Origin: Acidobacteriota bacterium
GTDB taxonomy: Bacteria; Acidobacteriota; UBA6911
NCBI GenBank assembly: GCA_012729555.1
Contig: JAAYCX010000013.1
Span: 1 to 64,000 of the forward strand
Direction: 5' to 3'
DNA length: 64,000 nt
Shown: positions 1,765 through 64,000 of the stretch, piece after piece
Position numbering within the stretch: position 1 is the first letter of the stretch
Layout of the letters: every line of letters begins with the position of its first letter
Position numbers and translations under genes: made by a program
The notes under the pieces: model-generated
Database searches by the model: none
What the model saw: the letters and a program-made list of their open reading frames with translations, nothing else
Told to the model about the DNA's origin: nothing

Positions 1765-3516
1765 ATGAAGACATCCGTCCTGTCGGGAGCCGTCCTGCTT
1801 TTTTCCGCCGTCCTGATCTCCGCCGGGGGGACGGCGCCCGTCGCCGGCCAGGAAGCCCCCGACACCACCGCGGAGCGGCGCGTCACGGTCCTCAACCCGG
1901 CGATCGCCACGAAGCTGGTGGAGCGGGTGCCGCTCGCGCCGCGGACCCCTTCGCTCGAAGGAAAGACCCTCTACCTGGTCGACCTGCAGTGGGGGGGACC
2001 CGAGGCGGCCTACAGCGTCTTCGAGGAAATGCGGGACTGGTTCGCCCGAAACATCCCCTCGGTAAAGATCGAAATCCGGCGCTCCGCCGGGGGGCCGTTC
2101 GGCGACGACGCCGGGCTGCGGAAGGAGATCCTGGCCTCGGGGGCGGCGGGCGCCGTCATCGGGATAGGCGGTTGACACGGCTGCGTATCGGCCGTGAGCC
2201 GGTTTGCGCGGAACCTCGAACTTGAAGGCCGCATCCCCACCGTCGGCGCCTCCGCCGTCAATGTCGTGAAATTCAAGGACTACGAGCTCCAGTATTCCAA
2301 CGGCATGCCGATCCGCTACGTGGCGGTTCCCTTCCCCGTGGCCGGCCAGCCCCGAAGCGTCCACCGGGCCTACGTCGAGGGGAAGGACCTCCTCTCCGGC
2401 AAACCGATGATGCGGGCCGTCATCGACGCCCTGACGGCCCCGCTCACGGCCGAAGAGAAGCGCGCCGGGATGCCGCCGGCCGCCGCGCCCGAGCCGAGGC
2501 TCCTGGCGCCCGGCACGGAGGACGATCTCCAGCGCCTGTTCAAGGAGAGGGAGTGGACCGACTTCCTCCCCGTCGTCCTCCCGACCGAAAAGCGGGTGGC
2601 GGCCATGCTGCGGGGGACCAGCCGCAAGCCGGAAGAAGTGGTCAGCCGGACGGGCTCCCGGGAACTGACGGTGGAGAAGGCGGCGGTTTACGCCGTCATG
2701 GCCGGCGCCCGGCCCGAGTACTTCCCCGCCATCCTCGCGACGCTGACGCAGGCCCCCTCTTTCGGGAACTCCACCAGCTCCATGGCGAACATGATCGTCT
2801 TCAACGGGCCGGTCCGCCGGCGGCTCGGGATCCACTCGGGGACCGATGTGATGGGCCCCTTCAGCGAGGCCAACTCCGTCATCGGCCGCACCTTCACCCT
2901 GGCGGGCAAGATCCTGGGGGACCTCCGTCTCAACGTGGGAGCCTATTCGACCCTGGGCAGCGCGCTGCAATACAACAACCTCTGCATCGCCGAGAACGAG
3001 GAACTCCTCCCCGCCGGCTGGAATTCCCTCAGCGTCGAGATGGGGTTCAAGCCGGAGGAGGACGTGGTCAGCGTCGGCATTGGCTGGAGCTACATCTCGA
3101 GCGTGGGGGAGGCGCAGAGCGCCCACCCGCCCCACATGCTCATCCGCGACTACATGCGCTCGCTCTACGGCTCGGCCGCGACCATCGTCATGGACCCGAC
3201 CGTGGCCGGCCTGCTCAGGGACGTGCACGGCTTCAAATCCAAATCGGAGCTCGGCCGGTGGCTGGCGGACAACGTCGAGGTGGCCGCCTCCACCTTCTGG
3301 GGGAACGGCGTCAACACCACGGCCAGCATGCCGATGGCCCTCCAGGGGCTGGAACCGTTCGCGGGCTGGATGAAGGCGCCGCCGGACACCCTGATCAAAC
3401 CCTTCACCAACGCCCGCTCCATCCAGGTCATCGTCGCCGGCGGGAATATCCAGACCACCTGGTTCGCGACCGATTTCCGCTTCGGCCGGGGCATCCCCAT
3501 CACCCCCTGGAAATAA
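1765..3516 (+). CDS. UGSC-family selenoprotein with in-frame UGA (probable selenocysteine at residue 137)
   Basis: A signal peptide (MKTSVLSGAVLLFSAVLIS) is followed by one protein family that runs across a TGA at 2173-2175. Read through, the junction is AVIGIGG-U-HGC followed by VSAVSRFARNLELEGRIPTV. This matches the UGSC family, where U-G-S-C sits at the same place before a RGIPTV-like segment. The downstream half (EKAAVYAVMAGARPEYFPAI, FNGPVRRRLGIHSG, CIAENEE) is typical of the rest of that family. ATG 1765 has a strong GGGGAGGGGG ribosome binding site, whereas the possible restart GTG at 2194 has none. A SECIS-like hairpin follows the TGA. Total length would be 583 residues. The reaction is unknown; a redox role is inferred from the UxxC motif and the neighbouring ferredoxin. 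The alternative is a plain nonsense mutation in a broken gene, less likely because both halves look intact. Confidence 0.8.
2182..2208 (+). promoter_or_regulatory. bSECIS-like hairpin after the UGA of the UGSC gene
   Basis: Counting the TGA at 2173-2175 as bases 1-3, bases 17-20 (CGGC) pair with 26-29 (GCCG) around the loop CGTGA. The stem continues with a U-G and an A-U pair, a U-U mismatch, then four more pairs (two of them G-U). Its apical loop lies about 18-22 bases after the UGA, the range expected of bacterial selenocysteine insertion elements, and carries a G near its 5' side. Pairing was done by eye; folding energy was not computed. Confidence 0.55.
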
Positions 3517-3518
3517 TC

Positions 3519-3702
3519 AAATCCTGGACATCCACTCTTTGGGAAATTGTGGACATCCACCAAATGAGAGCCCCTGATCCTGGACATCCACCAATTCTGG
3601 ACATCCACTGATCCTGGATGTCGGCCAATCCTGGACACCCACAGATTGACATGGAAGGACCTCAACCCGGACCCGCACCCGATTGGTGGGTGTCCAGGAT
3701 TT
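3519..3702. repeat. Cluster of TGGACATCCAC repeats (family C)
   Basis: Exact copies of TGGACATCCAC lie at 3525-3535, 3550-3560, 3581-3591 and 3598-3608. Variants lie at 3616 (TGGATGTCGGCC) and 3632-3642 (TGGACACCCAC), and an inverted copy (GTGGGTGTCCA) at 3686-3696. Each is usually preceded by AATCC or AATTG. The same element recurs between and after the two aldo/keto reductase genes. The rest of the 290-base gap before the next gene holds no recognisable gene. Confidence 0.9.
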
Positions 3703-3806
3703 GGGGCCGGCCCCCGGGATCGCCCAATGGTATATTGTTAGAAGACCATCGGGTGCCCGAGCGCGTCCTGCAGGCGCACTTGCACCCGACCAGAGGAGGA
3801 CGCACC

Positions 3807-5324
3807 ATGGCCGGTTTCCCGGATACCCCCCTTTCGAGGCGAAAATTTCTCAAGGGCGCCACGCTCGTATCCGCGAGCCTCTCCCTCGGACCCCATTTCG
3901 TCTTTGGCAAAACCGGGCCCGACCGCCTGATGAAGCGTCCCATCGGACGCCTCGGTTTCGAGGCGACAACCCTCGGCCTGGGAGGCCAATCCTCCCTGCA
4001 GTGGACCCCCGCGGACGAGGATCCCGTCAGGATCATCCTCAAGGCCTTCGACCTCGGGATCAATTATTACGACACCTCGAACGTCTACGGCCCCAGCCAG
4101 TCCAACTACGGCAAGGCGTTCCGCGAGCTTCACCTGGTCCCCGGGCGGCCGGGGTACAACGAACGGCTCCGCCGCTCCTTCTTCCTGACCACGAAGACGA
4201 TGCTCCGCTTCGGCAAGGGAGGGTGGAAGAAGGAGGGGCTCTGGAGCTGGACCGACGGCGCCCAGGGATCGACCACTGTGGACGACATCCGGCGCACCCT
4301 GTCGCTCGTCTTCGGAGACGGGCAGGGGGCCTACCCCAGGGGGGCCTACGTCGACATGGTCCTGGTTCACGCCCTGGAGAGCCAGGCCGACATCGAGGCA
4401 GTCTACGAGGGGTACGGCCATCCCGATCCCAAGGCGGAGCACATCGGCGCGCTGACCACTCTCGTCGACTTCCGGGACGGCACCAACCTCACGGGCCTCA
4501 ACCCGAAGGAGGAAAGGCTCCTGCGCCATATCGGCTTCTCGGCCCACGCCTCGCCGGCCACCACGATGGAGATGATCCAGCGCGACCACCGGGGGGTGCT
4601 CGACGGGTTGCTCGTGGCCATCAACGCCAACGACCGGATGAACTTCAGCATGCAGCTGAACGCGATCCCCGTGGCCGCGGCCAACAATATCGGCGTCATC
4701 GCCATGAAGGTGTTCGCCGACGGCGCCATGTATTCCAAACCGGCGACCTGGACCAGCCGGGCCGACATGCTGGTCAGGACCGTGGGCAGCCCCGCGCTTC
4801 CCAGCCGCCGGCTGGTGGAATACTCCCTGACCACCCCCGGCGTTCATACCGCCGTCATCGGCATCGGGCACATCGACAGCGACTCCGCAGCCTGCCAGCT
4901 CGAGCAGAACCTCCTTGCCGCCCAGGTCGAACCGGCCGCCCTCGGCGCGGGCGACCGCCGCGCGATCGAAGAGCTGGCGCATTCGGCCAAGGAGGGCAAA
5001 ACCAACTACTTCCAGGCCGCCGCACAGCCCCTGGGCTCCCCGCGCTCGCCGGAAGCCAGCCAGCGGATGCGGGGAGAGCGGCGCACGGCGAGGCTTGAGT
5101 GGCATACGGCTTACGCGGGAGACGAACCTCTGGTGCGGTACGAAATCTGGCGCGACGGCCGGAAAACGGCCGAGACGCCCCACAAGCCGCAGGCCAGGCT
5201 GAACACCCCCTTCGCCTTCGAGGAAACCCTGGCCGACCGTTCCGCCCATCGCTACCGGGTGGTCGCCGTGGACCGCGCGGGAAGGAGGGCCGGGACCGAA
5301 GAGCTGGACCTTCCAAACATCTGA
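3807..5324 (+). CDS. Tat-exported aldo/keto reductase with C-terminal fibronectin III-like tail (copy 1)
   Basis: 505 residues. The Tat signal (SRRKFLKG) precedes an aldo/keto reductase barrel beginning RPIGRLGFEATTLGLGGQ. The usual catalytic set is visible: Asp and Tyr in YDTSNVYGPSQS, Lys in LTTKTML and His in MVLVHALE. The family reduces or oxidises carbonyl/alcohol groups of sugars and related compounds with NAD(P)H. After the barrel, the last 90 or so residues (EWHTAYAGDEPLVRYEIWRDG ending HRYRVVAVDRAGRR) resemble a fibronectin III module. ATG 3807 follows AGAGGAGGA. A second, closely similar gene follows directly, so this is a tandem duplicate. Export with a nucleotide cofactor makes Tat use plausible. 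The substrate is unknown. Confidence 0.85.
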   Translation: MAGFPDTPLSRRKFLKGATLVSASLSLGPHFVFGKTGPDRLMKRPIGRLGFEATTLGLGGQSSLQWTPADEDPVRIILKAFDLGINYYDTSNVYGPSQSNYGKAFRELHLVPGRPGYNERLRRSFFLTTKTMLRFGKGGWKKEGLWSWTDGAQGSTTVDDIRRTLSLVFGDGQGAYPRGAYVDMVLVHALESQADIEAVYEGYGHPDPKAEHIGALTTLVDFRDGTNLTGLNPKEERLLRHIGFSAHASPATTMEMIQRDHRGVLDGLLVAINANDRMNFSMQLNAIPVAAANNIGVIAMKVFADGAMYSKPATWTSRADMLVRTVGSPALPSRRLVEYSLTTPGVHTAVIGIGHIDSDSAACQLEQNLLAAQVEPAALGAGDRRAIEELAHSAKEGKTNYFQAAAQPLGSPRSPEASQRMRGERRTARLEWHTAYAGDEPLVRYEIWRDGRKTAETPHKPQARLNTPFAFEETLADRSAHRYRVVAVDRAGRRAGTEELDLPNI

Positions 5325-5331
5325 GGCTCAC

Positions 5332-5380
5332 AAATCGTGGACATCCACCCATTCACACAATGTGTGGATGTCCACGATTT
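5332..5380. repeat. Perfect inverted pair of family C repeats, possible terminator
   Basis: Arms 5332-5348 and 5364-5380 are exact reverse complements over 17 bases (AAATCGTGGACATCCAC and its complement) with a 15-base loop. It begins 7 bases after the stop of the first aldo/keto reductase and ends 19 bases before the next start. It could act as a transcription terminator or RNA-stabilising hairpin, but it lacks a T tract. Confidence 0.9.
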
Positions 5381-5399
5381 TCATCAAGGAGTGATCGGC

Positions 5400-6911
5400 A
5401 TGGCTGAAATGATCGAATGCACCGTCCCCCGCCGGCGGTTTATCCGGACCGCCGCCGCGGCCTCGGCCGGACTGGCCCTCGGACCCTGGTTTGTTTTCGG
5501 AAAGGCCAGGCCCGCCCGCCTCATGAAGCGCCCGATGGGGCGCCTCGGCTTCGAGGCCACCACCCTCGGCCTGGGGGGACAGGCATCCCTGCAGTGGACT
5601 CCCGCGGACGAAGACCCTGTCAGGATCATCCTCAAGGCTTTCGATCTCGGGGTGAATTACTACGACACCTCAAACGTCTACGACGGCAGCCAGTCCTTCT
5701 ACGGCAAGGCCTTCCGCGAGCTTCACCTGATCCCCGGGCAGGCGGGGTACAACGAGAGTCTCCGTCGATCCATCTTCCTGACGAGCAAGACCGCCCTCCG
5801 CTTCGGCAAAGGGGGATGGCAGAAACAGGGCCTGATCAACGTCTCCAACGGCAAGGGCGGCCACACGGCGGACGATTTGCGGCGGACCCTGTCGCAGGTC
5901 TTCGGGGACGGGCAGGGGGGGTATCCCGGCGGCTCCTACCTGAACATGGTGCTGCTGCACAGCATCTCGACCATGGCCGACATCGACGCCGCCTTCGAGG
6001 GGTACGACAAACCCGACCCGAAAGCGGAGACCATCGGCGCCCTGGCCACGCTAGTCGACTTCCGCGACGGCACCAACCTCACCGGCCTCAATCCGAAGGA
6101 GGAAAAGCTCATCCGCCACATCGGCTTCTCGGGCCACGCGGCCCCCGATATCATGATGGAGATCATCCAGAGGGATCGCCGTCGGGTCCTGGACGGGATG
6201 CTCGTGGCCATCAACGCCAACGACCGGATGAATTTCAGCATGCAGTACAACGTCATCCCGGTGGCCGCGGCAAACGACATCGGCGTCATCGCCATGAAGG
6301 TGTTCGCCGACGGCGCCATGTACTCGAAACCTGCCACCTGGACCAGCCGCCCCGACATGGTGGTCCGGACCGTGGGAAGCCCCTCCCTCCCCAGCCACCG
6401 GCTGGTGGAATATGCCTTGACCACCCCCGGGGTCCACACGGCCATTATCGGCACCGGGCATATCGATCCCGATGCGTCGGCGTGCCAGCTGGAGCAGAAC
6501 CTGCTCGCCGCCCAGGTCGAACCCGACGCGTTCGCCGTCTCCGACCGACGCGAGATCGAAAAAATGGCCCGCACTGCCAAGGAGGGCAAAACCAACTACT
6601 TCCAGGCCGCCGCCCAGCCGCTCGGAGGGCCGCGCGAAGCCGCGGCCGATCAGCACCTGCGGGAAGGCCATCGGATTTCCAGCGTCAGATGGCAGACGGC
6701 CTACGCGGGGGACGAGCCCTTGGCCCGCTATGAAATCTGGCGGGACGACCGGAAAGCGGGGGAGGTGCCCCACAGGCCGCAGGCCGATCGGACCCCCTTT
6801 TCCTTCGAGGAAAGGCTCGGGGACAAGGCGGCACACCGATACCGGGTCGTGGCGGTGGACGCCGCCGGACGGAGGGCCGAGACGGCCGATCTGGACCTGC
6901 CCGCCGTCTAG
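5400..6911 (+). CDS. Tat-exported aldo/keto reductase with C-terminal fibronectin III-like tail (copy 2)
   Basis: 503 residues, collinear and highly similar to the gene just upstream over its whole length. Shared segments include RLGFEATTLGLGGQ, SLQWTPADEDPVRIILKAFD and INANDRMNFSMQ. The Tat signal (PRRRFIRT) differs most. The same Asp/Tyr (YDTSNVYDGSQS), Lys (LTSKTAL) and His (VLLHSI) of the aldo/keto reductase family are present, with the same Fn3-like tail (YEIWRDDRKAGE). ATG 5400 has AAGGAG at 8 bases; the longer frame would begin inside the repeat hairpin. Tandem duplication followed by divergence is the simplest history. Whether both copies are active on the same substrate is unknown. 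Confidence 0.85.
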   Translation: MAEMIECTVPRRRFIRTAAAASAGLALGPWFVFGKARPARLMKRPMGRLGFEATTLGLGGQASLQWTPADEDPVRIILKAFDLGVNYYDTSNVYDGSQSFYGKAFRELHLIPGQAGYNESLRRSIFLTSKTALRFGKGGWQKQGLINVSNGKGGHTADDLRRTLSQVFGDGQGGYPGGSYLNMVLLHSISTMADIDAAFEGYDKPDPKAETIGALATLVDFRDGTNLTGLNPKEEKLIRHIGFSGHAAPDIMMEIIQRDRRRVLDGMLVAINANDRMNFSMQYNVIPVAAANDIGVIAMKVFADGAMYSKPATWTSRPDMVVRTVGSPSLPSHRLVEYALTTPGVHTAIIGTGHIDPDASACQLEQNLLAAQVEPDAFAVSDRREIEKMARTAKEGKTNYFQAAAQPLGGPREAAADQHLREGHRISSVRWQTAYAGDEPLARYEIWRDDRKAGEVPHRPQADRTPFSFEERLGDKAAHRYRVVAVDAAGRRAETADLDLPAV

Positions 6912-44563: not shown

Positions 44564-44659
44564 GTGGTGCCAGCGGCGGCCGAATGCGATACACTGGAAG
44601 GGAAAGGGAGGTGGAGAGGTAGAGTGAGAGACAGGAATTTTGAAGCTGGAACCGCAATC

Positions 44660-45565
44660 ATGACCCAGGAATGGCCGTCGTTCGCCCGGAAACTGGCGGA
44701 GGTGCTGGCCGAGCTGGGACCCGACCAGTTGCTGGTCCTTTCCGACCCGGCCACCACCCGTTTCGTGCAGTTCGTGGCGCAGGGAACGGACGGGATACGG
44801 GCGGAAATCTCGAGCAACGCCAGCCTCTCCCCCGGGGATCGGCTGAGCCGGGCCCAGGCGGCCCAGCTGGTCAGCGCGGGCTGGGAGAAACCGGCCGACA
44901 CCCCGAAACCGTCGGCGCCCGAAACCGCCCCCGACGGATCCCCCAACTTCTTCATCGACTTCCCCGCCCCCGTGGAGGTGACGCGGGTCTCGGAACAGAC
45001 GATCGCGGCCCTGGCGGGGGTGCTCCGGATCCCGCGCCCGGAAATGCTGGAATACGCCGCCTTCGATGCCGAAGGGAGGGCGCTCGACTTTTCTCGACTG
45101 GGGATCCGGCGGATCGAGAAGCGGCAGCAGATCAACCCCGGGAGAATCTCCAGGCGTCTGCTCGTCTGCCTCCGCAAATTCACGGGGATCCCCGACCTCG
45201 ACTACGACGAGGACGGGGACATCGGGCTCGTTTTCGACAACGTGAGCATGTTCATCCGCATCCTGGGCAGCCCCCCCGCCGTCCGCCTGTACGCCCCGCT
45301 GGTGCACGGCGCGCGCGAAAGCCGCGGCCTGCTCACCCGGCTCAACGAGCTGAACTCGGGCTTCGGGTCCATGCACTTCTTCATTCTCAACCGGACCATC
45401 GGCGCCGTGACCGAAATCCCGGCCGCGCCGCTGCGGTACGAAGTCCTGGCCCAGACCATGAACCATTTCTGCAGCGTGGTCGACGGGGTGCACAAACAGC
45501 TCAACGAGGAATTCGGCCGCAGGCGGTCCTACCTGAAAACGCCCAAAAGCACCATGGTCCACTGA
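44660..45565 (+). CDS. TY-Chap/YbjN-type chaperone-like domain protein
   Basis: 301 residues. The N-terminal 90 residues (FARKLAEVLAELGPDQLLVLS, TRFVQFVAQGTDGIRAEIS) match the TY-Chap domain, seen next to many toxin or secretion chaperones. The C-terminal 150 residues (ALDFSRLGIRRIEKRQQINPG, GLLTRLNELNSGFGSMHFFI) resemble the T3SS-chaperone-like YbjN fold. A cytosolic protein-binding role is plausible; no partner is evident. ATG 44660 is chosen over several in-frame upstream codons without family similarity. It converges with the selenoprotein gene, 7 bases away. Confidence 0.65.
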   Translation: MTQEWPSFARKLAEVLAELGPDQLLVLSDPATTRFVQFVAQGTDGIRAEISSNASLSPGDRLSRAQAAQLVSAGWEKPADTPKPSAPETAPDGSPNFFIDFPAPVEVTRVSEQTIAALAGVLRIPRPEMLEYAAFDAEGRALDFSRLGIRRIEKRQQINPGRISRRLLVCLRKFTGIPDLDYDEDGDIGLVFDNVSMFIRILGSPPAVRLYAPLVHGARESRGLLTRLNELNSGFGSMHFFILNRTIGAVTEIPAAPLRYEVLAQTMNHFCSVVDGVHKQLNEEFGRRRSYLKTPKSTMVH

Positions 45566-45572
45566 CGCCCGG

Positions 45573-46193
45573 TCAGCCGCCCGCGTCCGCCTTTTTCGCC
45601 ACCCCGTGCTTTTCCACGAACTCCGCGAGTGCGGAGTAGCCCTGCGCCCCCGAGAGCCGTTCGCCGCCGAGGATCAGGGTGGGGACGACGCGCACCCTTT
45701 CCCCCTCCGCAAGGGCCCAGTCGGCGTCCACCGCCTGGCTGAAGGTGCGCAGGCTGAGGATGTCGGCCGCCCGCTCCTCCGGGAGCCCCACCGAACCGGC
45801 CGTGCGGGCCAGTACCGCCGGGGAGGAGATGTTTTTCCCCTCCACGAAGTAGGCGCGGTAAACGGCCTGGAGGAACTCGTCCCCCCGCCGTTCGGCCGCG
45901 GCCCAGAGCGCCAGTTCCTGCGCCAGGCGCGTGTTGTAGAGCCGGTCCGCCCCCTGGAAGGGGACCCCGTACTTCTCCGCGGCCTGCGCCAGCCGCCTCC
46001 TCATTCTTTCCAGGTCCGCGCCCGGGCCCATGAATTCTTCCATCGGCGTCCCCTCCGCGGGCGTTTCCGGGTGGAGCGGGTAGGCGCGCCAGAGAAGGGA
46101 GATGTCGTATTCCTGCTTCAGTTTTTCAATACCCCCGGTAATGAAATAGCACCAGGGTCAAACGTAATCGTGAAAGATCTCCAGGATGTGCAT
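45573..46193 (-). CDS. DsbA/FrnE-family selenoprotein with UPWC active site (in-frame UGA, residue 12)
   Basis: Reading from ATG 46193 (GGAGGG ribosome binding site), the frame is MHILEIFHDYV, then TGA at 46158-46160, then PWCYFITGGIEKLKQEYD and on without break to 45573. The FrnE/2-hydroxychromene-isomerase-like DsbA family has D-x-V-C-P-W-C-Y at this place, so the UGA replaces the first active-site Cys and gives UPWC. The C-terminal conserved parts (QALYRAYF-like VYRAYFVEGKNIS, VRVVPTLILGGERLSGAQGY) are intact. A SECIS-like hairpin follows the UGA. Total 206 residues. A cytosolic thiol/disulfide or isomerase role is inferred. The only shorter start is ATG 46043, which would delete the active site. 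A nonsense mutation is the alternative, but the rest of the gene shows no decay. Confidence 0.85.
46124..46146 (-). promoter_or_regulatory. bSECIS-like hairpin after the UGA of the DsbA-family gene
   Basis: On the minus strand, with the TGA as bases 1-3, TTTCA (15-19) pairs with TGAAA (33-37). A U-U mismatch follows, then TACC (21-24) pairs with GGTA (28-31) around the loop GGG. The G-rich apical loop lies 22-24 bases after the UGA, within the range expected of bacterial SECIS elements. The layout, including one U-U mismatch, resembles the hairpin in the UGSC gene. Pairing by eye only. Confidence 0.65.
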
Positions 46194-46325
46194 GTTTCCC
46201 TCCGTTCGGTGATCGGCTCCTGCATCCATAGTAGCATCGGAGGGGAAAATGTGCACGGAAACGCCCGAAACGTCCCCCGCTGTGATATCGTGGGGCGCAA
46301 AATCAAAACCAGCGGAGGACCGGGC

Positions 46326-47864
46326 ATGGAACTGAGCCTTTTCGATATCGCCTCCTTTCTCCTCTTCTTCCTGATAGTCATCGGCGTGAGCATGTACAAG
46401 AGCCGCCGGGAGGAATCGGGGGAAGACTTCTTCCTGGCCGGGCGCGGTCTCCTCTGGCCCATGATAGGGCTCTCGCTCATCGCGGCCAACATCTCGACCG
46501 AGCAGATCGTGGGGCAGGCGGGCCAGGGGGCGGGAAATGTCGGCTTCGCCGTCGCCAGCTACGAGTGGATGGCGGCCATCACCCTCGTCTTCGTCGCCTT
46601 CTTCTTCCTGCCGCGCTTTCTCCGGAGCGGCATCTTCACCATGCCCGAGTACCTCGAGTACCGCTATTCGACCGCCGCCCGGGGACTGATGGCGTTCTAC
46701 ACCCTGGTCATCTACGTCGGCGTGACCATCTCGGCCGTCATCTATTCCGGGGCGCTGACGATCCATACCATCTTCGACATGAAGCTCACGACCGCCGTGT
46801 GGCTGATCGGCGGGATCGCGGCCCTCTACGCGACCTGGGGCGGCCTGAAGGCCGTCGCCTGGGCCGACCTCTTCCAGGGGGGGGCGCTGCTCGCCGGCGG
46901 CCTCGTCGTCGTGGGGATCGGCCTCCACGCCGTCGGGGGGGTGGAGCGGTTCATGGCCGTCAACGCCGACCGCATGCACATGATCCTCCCCGCGGACCAC
47001 CCGGTGCTCCCCTGGACCGCCCTGGTCGTCGGCCTCTGGATCCCCAACTTCTACTACTGGGGGCTGAACCAGTACATCACCCAGCGCACGCTGGCGGCCC
47101 GCTCGATCCGGCAGGGCCAGATGGGCATCCTCTTCGCGGCCTTCCTGAAGCTCCTGATCCCCTTCATCGTCATCGTCCCCGGCATCGTGGCCTACCAGCT
47201 CTACGGCGGCGAGCTGGCCGCGCAGCCCGACGCCGCCTACCCGCTCCTGATCCGGAACCTGATCCCCATCGGCGTGCGCGGCCTCATCTTCGCCGCCATC
47301 GCCGGCGCCGTCATCAGTTCCCTCGCCTCAATGCTCAACTCCGCCTCCACCATCTTCACGATGGACCTCTACAAGCGCCACCTGAGAAAGGACGCCCCGC
47401 CGAAGGCGCTCGTGTCGATGGGGCGCGCCGTGACGGTCGCGCTGGTCGTTCTGGGGTGCCTCATCGCTCCCCAGCTGGGAAACCCGCGCTTCCAGGGGAT
47501 CTTCAACTACATCCAGGAATTCCAGGGCTTCGTCTCCCCCGGCATCCTCGCCGCCTTCGTCTTCGGCATGATTTTCAGGCGCTGCCCGCCGGCCGCGGGG
47601 GTTACGGCCCTGGTCTCGAGCCCCCTCATCTACGGCTTCCTCTTCTTCGCCGCCGCCGACATGGCGTTTCTCAACCGGATGGCCGTGACTTTCGCCGTCA
47701 TCCTCGCGCTCATGGCCCTCATCACGGCCTTCCGCCCGCTCCGGCAGCCCCGGACGATGCCGGTGCGCGCGGGGTTCGAGGATATCGCCCTGGCCCCGTC
47801 GGTCAAATACATCGGTGCGGCCGTTATCGCCGTCACCCTCGTGCTTTACTGGATCTTCTGGTAG
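46326..47864 (+). CDS. Sodium:solute symporter (SSS family), probable sugar transporter
   Basis: 512 residues with about 13 membrane helices. Family features: DFFLAGRGLLWPMIGLSLIAANISTEQIVG near the N-terminus, SGIFTMPEYLEYRYS, GGLKAVAWADLFQG and the SSLASMLNSASTIFTMDLYKR segment. This matches the SglT-like branch, in which Na+ drives sugar uptake. It is followed 10 bases later by galactokinase, so galactose is the most likely substrate. ATG 46326 has GGAGGA 6-7 bases upstream. It is divergent from the selenoprotein gene; the 132-base gap should hold both promoters. Confidence 0.88.
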   Translation: MELSLFDIASFLLFFLIVIGVSMYKSRREESGEDFFLAGRGLLWPMIGLSLIAANISTEQIVGQAGQGAGNVGFAVASYEWMAAITLVFVAFFFLPRFLRSGIFTMPEYLEYRYSTAARGLMAFYTLVIYVGVTISAVIYSGALTIHTIFDMKLTTAVWLIGGIAALYATWGGLKAVAWADLFQGGALLAGGLVVVGIGLHAVGGVERFMAVNADRMHMILPADHPVLPWTALVVGLWIPNFYYWGLNQYITQRTLAARSIRQGQMGILFAAFLKLLIPFIVIVPGIVAYQLYGGELAAQPDAAYPLLIRNLIPIGVRGLIFAAIAGAVISSLASMLNSASTIFTMDLYKRHLRKDAPPKALVSMGRAVTVALVVLGCLIAPQLGNPRFQGIFNYIQEFQGFVSPGILAAFVFGMIFRRCPPAAGVTALVSSPLIYGFLFFAAADMAFLNRMAVTFAVILALMALITAFRPLRQPRTMPVRAGFEDIALAPSVKYIGAAVIAVTLVLYWIFW

Positions 47865-63869: not shown

Positions 63870-63927
63870 ATTCTAACGGGAAACCCCTGGGACGTCCCGG
63901 ATTTTTCTGCTACATTTTCGGGGTTAT

Positions 63928-64000
63928 CAGGGGATGGAGTCCCCCAAAACCGCCCGGGCCGGCTGATGACTCCTACCGCGCAGGCATCTGCGGCGGTGGG
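63928..64000 (+). ncRNA. Fluoride riboswitch (crcB RNA) with partial expression platform
   Basis: The aptamer at 63928-63977 reads AGGGGATGGAGTCCCCC, AAAACCGCC, GGCTGATGACTCCTACC, in the same order as the crcB motif (GGCGATG-G...CCGCC...AACxGCC...GGCTGATG-CxCCTAC). P1/P2 stems and the long-range GGAGT/ACTCC pairing are all possible. A TACATT at 63911-63916 is a likely -10 box. From 63972 the 3' end of the aptamer (CCTACCGC) can instead pair with GCGGTGGG (63994-64000) through GCAG/CTGC, giving a competing terminator-like hairpin. The controlled gene, probably a fluoride exporter or enzyme, lies beyond the window. Confidence 0.9.

Follow-up and report, generated by a model that had tools for sequence, protein, structure and literature searches.

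Organization of the Locus

The window considered here is the whole stretch of DNA analyzed, 64,000 nucleotides of an Acidobacteriota contig, and on its minus strand, between genes for a YbjN-type protein and a sodium:solute symporter, lies a predicted selenoprotein gene whose reading frame is interrupted close to its start by a TGA codon. The features relevant to the analysis are as follows:

45573..46193, minus strand: predicted selenoprotein gene of 206 aa with selenocysteine (Sec) at residue 12 (UPWC), from the translation and a PF01323 match (E 6.5e-32)
46198..46203, minus strand: ribosome binding site GGAGGG, 4 nt before the ATG at 46193, read directly and identical in sister genome L038
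46158..46160, minus strand: in-frame UGA predicted to be read as Sec (U12), first residue of UPWC; TGA kept in relatives, Cys at the same column elsewhere
46149..46151, minus strand: codon of C15, the resolving Cys of UPWC, invariant in alignment A2 and the sole Cys of the protein
46126..46144, minus strand: predicted apical stem-loop of a bacterial SECIS element, with a UGA-to-loop distance of 20 nt and the loop core GGG at 46134-46136
45681..45683, minus strand: codon of P171 in a VP motif, expected cis-proline facing the active site; V170-P171 invariant in A2
44564..45565, plus strand: convergent neighbour, TY-Chap1/TY-Chap3 (YbjN-type) domain protein (PF22551, PF22552)
46326..47864, plus strand: divergent neighbour, sodium:solute symporter (PF00474, E 2.5e-62; NF007790)
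1765..3516, plus strand: second gene with an in-frame UGA (2173-2175), best match the UGSC family (PF24696, 31.5 bits against a cut-off of 25)

Direct translation of the frame 46193-45573 (minus strand) reveals a single internal TGA at 46160-46158, corresponding to residue 12 of a read-through product that begins MHILEIFHDYV-U-PWCYF, and the gene ends in a TGA terminator of its own (45575-45573, minus strand). Ordinary ORF calling recovers only 45573-46043, a product of 156 aa from which the active site is missing, which is exactly the short protein from 46043 that the initial annotation had expected of standard annotation pipelines; its placement of a ribosome binding site and start upstream of the UGA was likewise borne out by the GGAGGG at 46203-46198 before the ATG at 46193. 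Compared with sister genome L038, where the convergent TY-Chap neighbour also adjoins the gene, the gene is identical at the DNA level over the 11 codons that precede the UGA and the 12 that follow it, and the remainder of the gene carries 14.5% synonymous differences. The same comparison gave a dN of 0.069, a dS of 0.153, and a dN/dS ratio of about 0.45; judged from this pair of sequences, the protein is under purifying selection, being conserved downstream of the UGA.

The window was also said to hold two Sec-type genes, and the second is indeed present: the UGSC-family gene with its UGA at 2173 is probably the one that was meant. Its product carries the motif GGUHGC, begins with a signal-like N-terminus, and is extended at the C-terminus, and the NCBIfam UGSC model scored 19.7 bits against it, below the cut-off of 125. 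Elsewhere in the window, two tandem similar genes at 3618-6911 (plus strand), aldo/keto-reductase-like and with twin-arginine-like N-termini by eye, probably represent a duplication, and a fluoride riboswitch (RF01734, 52 bits) lies near the right end at 63921-63982 (plus strand).

Conservation of the UGA Codon

In a scan of public genomes with one genome per species, TGA occupied the residue-12 codon in all 28 relatives (36-87% identity), and Cys or Ser forms at this column appeared only at identities of 29% or below. Within the window's class, one TGA is present in each of four full-length copies, that of the window and three others with at least 41% identity. Broader searches gave a similar picture. 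In 396 genomes from the window's phylum, seven of seven matches scoring over 240 bits had TGA, and the next matches drop to 116 bits; in 395 genomes from the phylum to which the Desulfamplus relative L004 belongs, 49 of 51 matches of at least 200 bits had it. A copy with 87% identity and the same TGA is found in a sister Acidobacteria MAG, and apparently the same copy also occurs in a genome from the genus of the window; the assignment of the window genome to Acidobacteriota is based on these two occurrences. No relative was found in the viral contigs scanned, and the relatives in plasmid records all fell short of 60% identity, with the best of the listed matches at about 28-33%. In the alignment of the homologues at the UGA, other branches have Cys, not Trp, in this column, in agreement with the proposal that the UGA at 46160-46158 replaces the first Cys of CPWC at residue 12.

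It might be argued that a nonsense mutation or a sequencing error gave rise to the UGA in an ordinary CPWC gene, which would leave a pseudogene or a protein started internally at 46043. Standard ORF calling does yield 45573-46043, and metagenome assemblies do contain single-base stops, but the identical TGA recurs in dozens of independent genomes from several phyla, the codons flanking it are DNA-identical to those of the sister genome despite the synonymous differences elsewhere, and the frame upstream of it retains a ribosome binding site and a start. Because the UGA is conserved across independent genomes, sequencing error and local nonsense mutation are ruled out; an error at 46158-46160, which the initial annotation had raised as an objection, does not withstand the presence of TGA in independent assemblies at 36-87% protein identity. 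This explanation is already refuted by TGA conservation, and the probability left to it is vanishingly small.

Selenocysteine Machinery in the Genome

The window's assembly (3.8 Mb in 98 contigs, 98.9% complete) contains selA (563.7 bits), selB (380.4 bits), and selD (368.7 bits), all above curated cut-offs, together with a tRNA-Sec (72.4 bits) for which ARAGORN reports the anticodon tca. The other objection raised in advance, a genome lacking selB or selC, thus fails. Among the 28 genomes holding the UPWC gene, selA is above the cut-off in 27, and the only one without it (L029) is metagenome-assembled and may be incomplete. Co-occurrence with selA is uninformative in the window's own class, since 32 of its 38 genomes have selA regardless. 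The selD gene of the window's genome (L060, G000:C9:39575-40507) has an in-frame TGA, and by its sequence selenophosphate synthetase is likely itself a selenoprotein in this organism.

A Conserved SECIS-Type Hairpin

Downstream of the UGA, the window copy can form the hairpin UUUCA.UUACC-GGG-GGUA.UUGAAA, which has one U.U mismatch; numbered from the U of the UGA, nt 17-23 pair with nt 29-35 around a loop core of G[G/U]N. The published bSECIS model requires a loop of 3-9 nt, a stem of 4-16 bp, a G in the first two loop positions, and a distance of 16-37 nt from the UGA (PMC13188914). The hairpin is within these limits on loop, stem, G position, and spacing (20 nt), the window copy with its single U.U mismatch, and the SECIS-like hairpin with a GGG loop suggested by the initial annotation is therefore compatible with the published rules. 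bSECIS elements are in many cases species-specific. The hairpin alone is weak evidence because the model, in our own implementation, accepts 19% of all the window's TGAs, and scoring against the bSECIS consensus by itself was rejected as evidence for this reason. The Rfam scan of the window returned no SECIS match and only the fluoride riboswitch, and free-energy z-scores of four hairpins (-1.9 to 0.05) were not significant.

Synonymous-codon counts along the gene in 31 Sec relatives were used to measure excess constraint over codon usage, with a cut-off set by the authors. Besides codon 12 (the UGA), only codons 17, 18, 21, and 22 exceeded it, with nearly uniform codon choices (Ser AGT in 21/21, Arg CGT in 19/19, and Ile ATT in 25/26 cases); these codons form the two sides of the hairpin stem and are the only strongly constrained synonymous stretch of the gene. 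At least six of seven pairs and the G[G/U]N loop core are kept in all 54 distinct sequences. Changes on both sides were seen in five of eight pairs, including compensatory replacement of U21-A31 by C-G (L103, L105, L106, L107, and L115) and of A19-U33 by G-C (L109, L110, and L115) or U-A (L112). Compensatory cells numbered 20 versus 4.8 in shuffles, and the covariation score was higher than in all 500 shuffles and all slid controls; the shuffle test may be inflated by kinship among the sequences, a kinship that the slid controls share. Unlike the hairpin alone, its conservation across species, as read from the aligned sequences, exceeds chance.

In free RNA of the window copy, a competing hairpin (nt 4-11 with nt 21-28) is equally stable or more so. 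With the first 12 nt held unpaired, as a ribosome positioned at the UGA would presumably keep them, the pairs of the conserved stem have probabilities of at least 0.95, except for the U.U mismatch.

These observations also bear on whether the UGA could be read through in some other way, by a near-cognate tRNA (Trp or Arg) or under a reassigned code, so that the full-length protein would contain no selenium. Natural UGA readthrough exists; here, the same gene terminates at a UGA, homologues show Cys rather than Trp at the column, the conserved element fits bSECIS, and the genome has the Sec machinery, all of which make such readthrough very improbable and favour decoding of the codon as Sec.

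Protein Family, Fold, and Active Site

The read-through translation matches the PF01323 (DSBA) profile over residues 4-192 with 111.3 bits (cut-off 25.6, E 6.5e-32), and the solved protein closest to it in sequence is Deinococcus radiodurans FrnE, with 28% identity. An AlphaFold model built on the alignment of relatives has a mean pLDDT of 94.2 and predicts a thioredoxin fold with a helical insertion, in which helices at residues 51-164 lie between the two thioredoxin halves. The best structure match of the model by E-value is FrnE (5cnw, E 1e-14, TM 0.85; 5cp1, TM 0.86), and a DsbA-type protein of S. coelicolor (3gl5, TM 0.87) comes next after FrnE. Profile, sequence, and fold thus agree with the DsbA/FrnE assignment made in the initial annotation. 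No NCBIfam model scored above its cut-off for the UPWC clade, the closest model being far below.

U12, C15, and the VP motif with P171 are all invariant in alignment A2, and a cis geometry of P171 would be expected from the DsbA fold. The first strand of the predicted model begins at residue 2, leaving no space for a signal peptide, on which basis the enzyme is probably cytosolic. The C-terminal CXXXXC motif is absent from the protein, in which U12 and C15 are the only Sec or Cys residues.

The same Pfam domain and fold are found in 2-hydroxychromene-2-carboxylate (HCCA) isomerase and glutathione S-transferase (GST) kappa, both of which are among the structure matches (2imd, 3fz5, and 1yzx), raising the question of whether the selenoprotein acts as a glutathione-dependent isomerase or transferase of this type and not as a disulfide oxidoreductase. 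HCCA isomerase and GST kappa have Ser at the active-site position and lack a U/C-x-x-C redox motif. The window protein keeps a dithiol-type U-x-x-C with an invariant C15, and its predicted fold is closer to FrnE and the DsbA-type oxidoreductase (TM 0.84-0.87) than to HCCA isomerase and GST kappa, which rank lower (TM 0.71-0.76). An isomerase or transferase role is therefore unlikely, and a disulfide oxidoreductase is the preferred reading.

Relationship to Known Selenoproteins

A 2005 study of the Sargasso Sea (PMC1088965) described DsbA-like UxxC selenoproteins (COG2761), a family named DsbA 1 comprised 63 sequences in the Global Ocean Sampling (GOS) data (PMC2398784), and a DsbA-like protein form 1 was listed in 2026 (PMC13188914). 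The window gene resembles this COG2761/PF01323 family in its Pfam domain, the replacement of the first Cys of CxxC by Sec, and a bacterial SECIS element with a small G-containing loop, a likeness drawn from the published descriptions; it differs in being an Acidobacteriota copy that falls in a group made up mainly of Desulfobacterota. Selenoproteins of this kind have thus been known since 2005; the present analysis adds an Acidobacteriota member, support for the SECIS element at the codon level, and a reversion from Sec to Cys. Sec-containing FrnE has also been noted in green algae (PMC6627142).

D. radiodurans FrnE (DR_0659; 5cnw and 5cp1), presented in a review as a proposed disulfide reductase of the cytoplasm, is regenerated by its C-terminal CXXXXC, a motif that some FrnE homologues do not have (PMC8945050). 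The window protein shares the DsbA fold and has its motif at the same place as the CPWC of FrnE, but it carries Sec for the first Cys, has no C-terminal CXXXXC, and is only 28% identical. Given the missing motif, its function may differ from that of the D. radiodurans enzyme.

Evolution of the UPWC Clade

In the phylogenetic tree, the UPWC clade is separate from other DsbA-fold proteins, including a UPFC/UPYC selenoprotein clade that belongs to the same superfamily and has Sec at the same column; two members of the latter (L041 and L042) do not have the UPWC-type loop and stem there. Members of this second DsbA-fold selenoprotein clade were observed in the same class and phylum (L041, L042, L072, L075, L078, and L080), along with one Cys member (L073, CPYC). 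A third group, adjoining the UPWC clade, mixes Sec (L117 and L119) and Cys (L116 and L118) forms and would be well suited to dating switches between Sec and Cys. Sequences of the Desulfobacterales type surround the window gene and its sisters, in a mainly Desulfobacterota group, and this position suggests that the gene was transferred into the window's Acidobacteriota lineage. The UPWC clade also takes in alpha- and gammaproteobacteria and SAR324 members.

Two Cys members (L113 and L114; TGC, CPFC) branch within the Sec clade, next to the window's lineage (fork support 100/98). In both, the G[G/U]N loop core is gone and only 4-5 of the seven pairs are left, and their genomes still have selA. 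Joint loss of the UGA and the hairpin is what would be expected if the hairpin served only UGA recoding. The idea of a strictly Sec-only clade was dropped once these members were found. It is conceivable, though somewhat doubtful, that the UPWC sequences form a FrnE-like subfamily of their own in which Sec is nearly obligate and Cys fills the role poorly; this reading is based on Sec in 49/51 and 7/7 of the matches described above and on the return of Cys in one small lineage.

Proposed Mechanism and Implications

The gene very probably encodes a single-domain, FrnE-like enzyme of the DsbA superfamily, presumably cytosolic, with Sec as the active-site nucleophile. When the UGA at 46160-46158 reaches the ribosome, SelB carrying Sec-tRNA(UCA) would bind the hairpin (46144-46126), which would then lie just beyond the ribosome, and translation would continue with Sec and not terminate; if selenium or SelB were lacking, the product would be a peptide of only 11 residues. 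Reduction or isomerisation of cytosolic disulfides is the most likely activity of the enzyme, with Sec12 attacking the disulfide and Cys15 resolving the intermediate. Regeneration would have to be external because the C-terminal CXXXXC of D. radiodurans FrnE is missing, and thioredoxin, a low-molecular-weight thiol, or another cellular reductant may carry it out.

As ORF calling truncates the gene and drops its active site, and the NCBIfam models remain below cut-off, genes of this type have likely been misannotated in many genomes. In addition, a Sec clade with two nested Cys members provides a natural Sec/Cys comparison, which could test the contribution of Sec to an enzyme with the DsbA fold.
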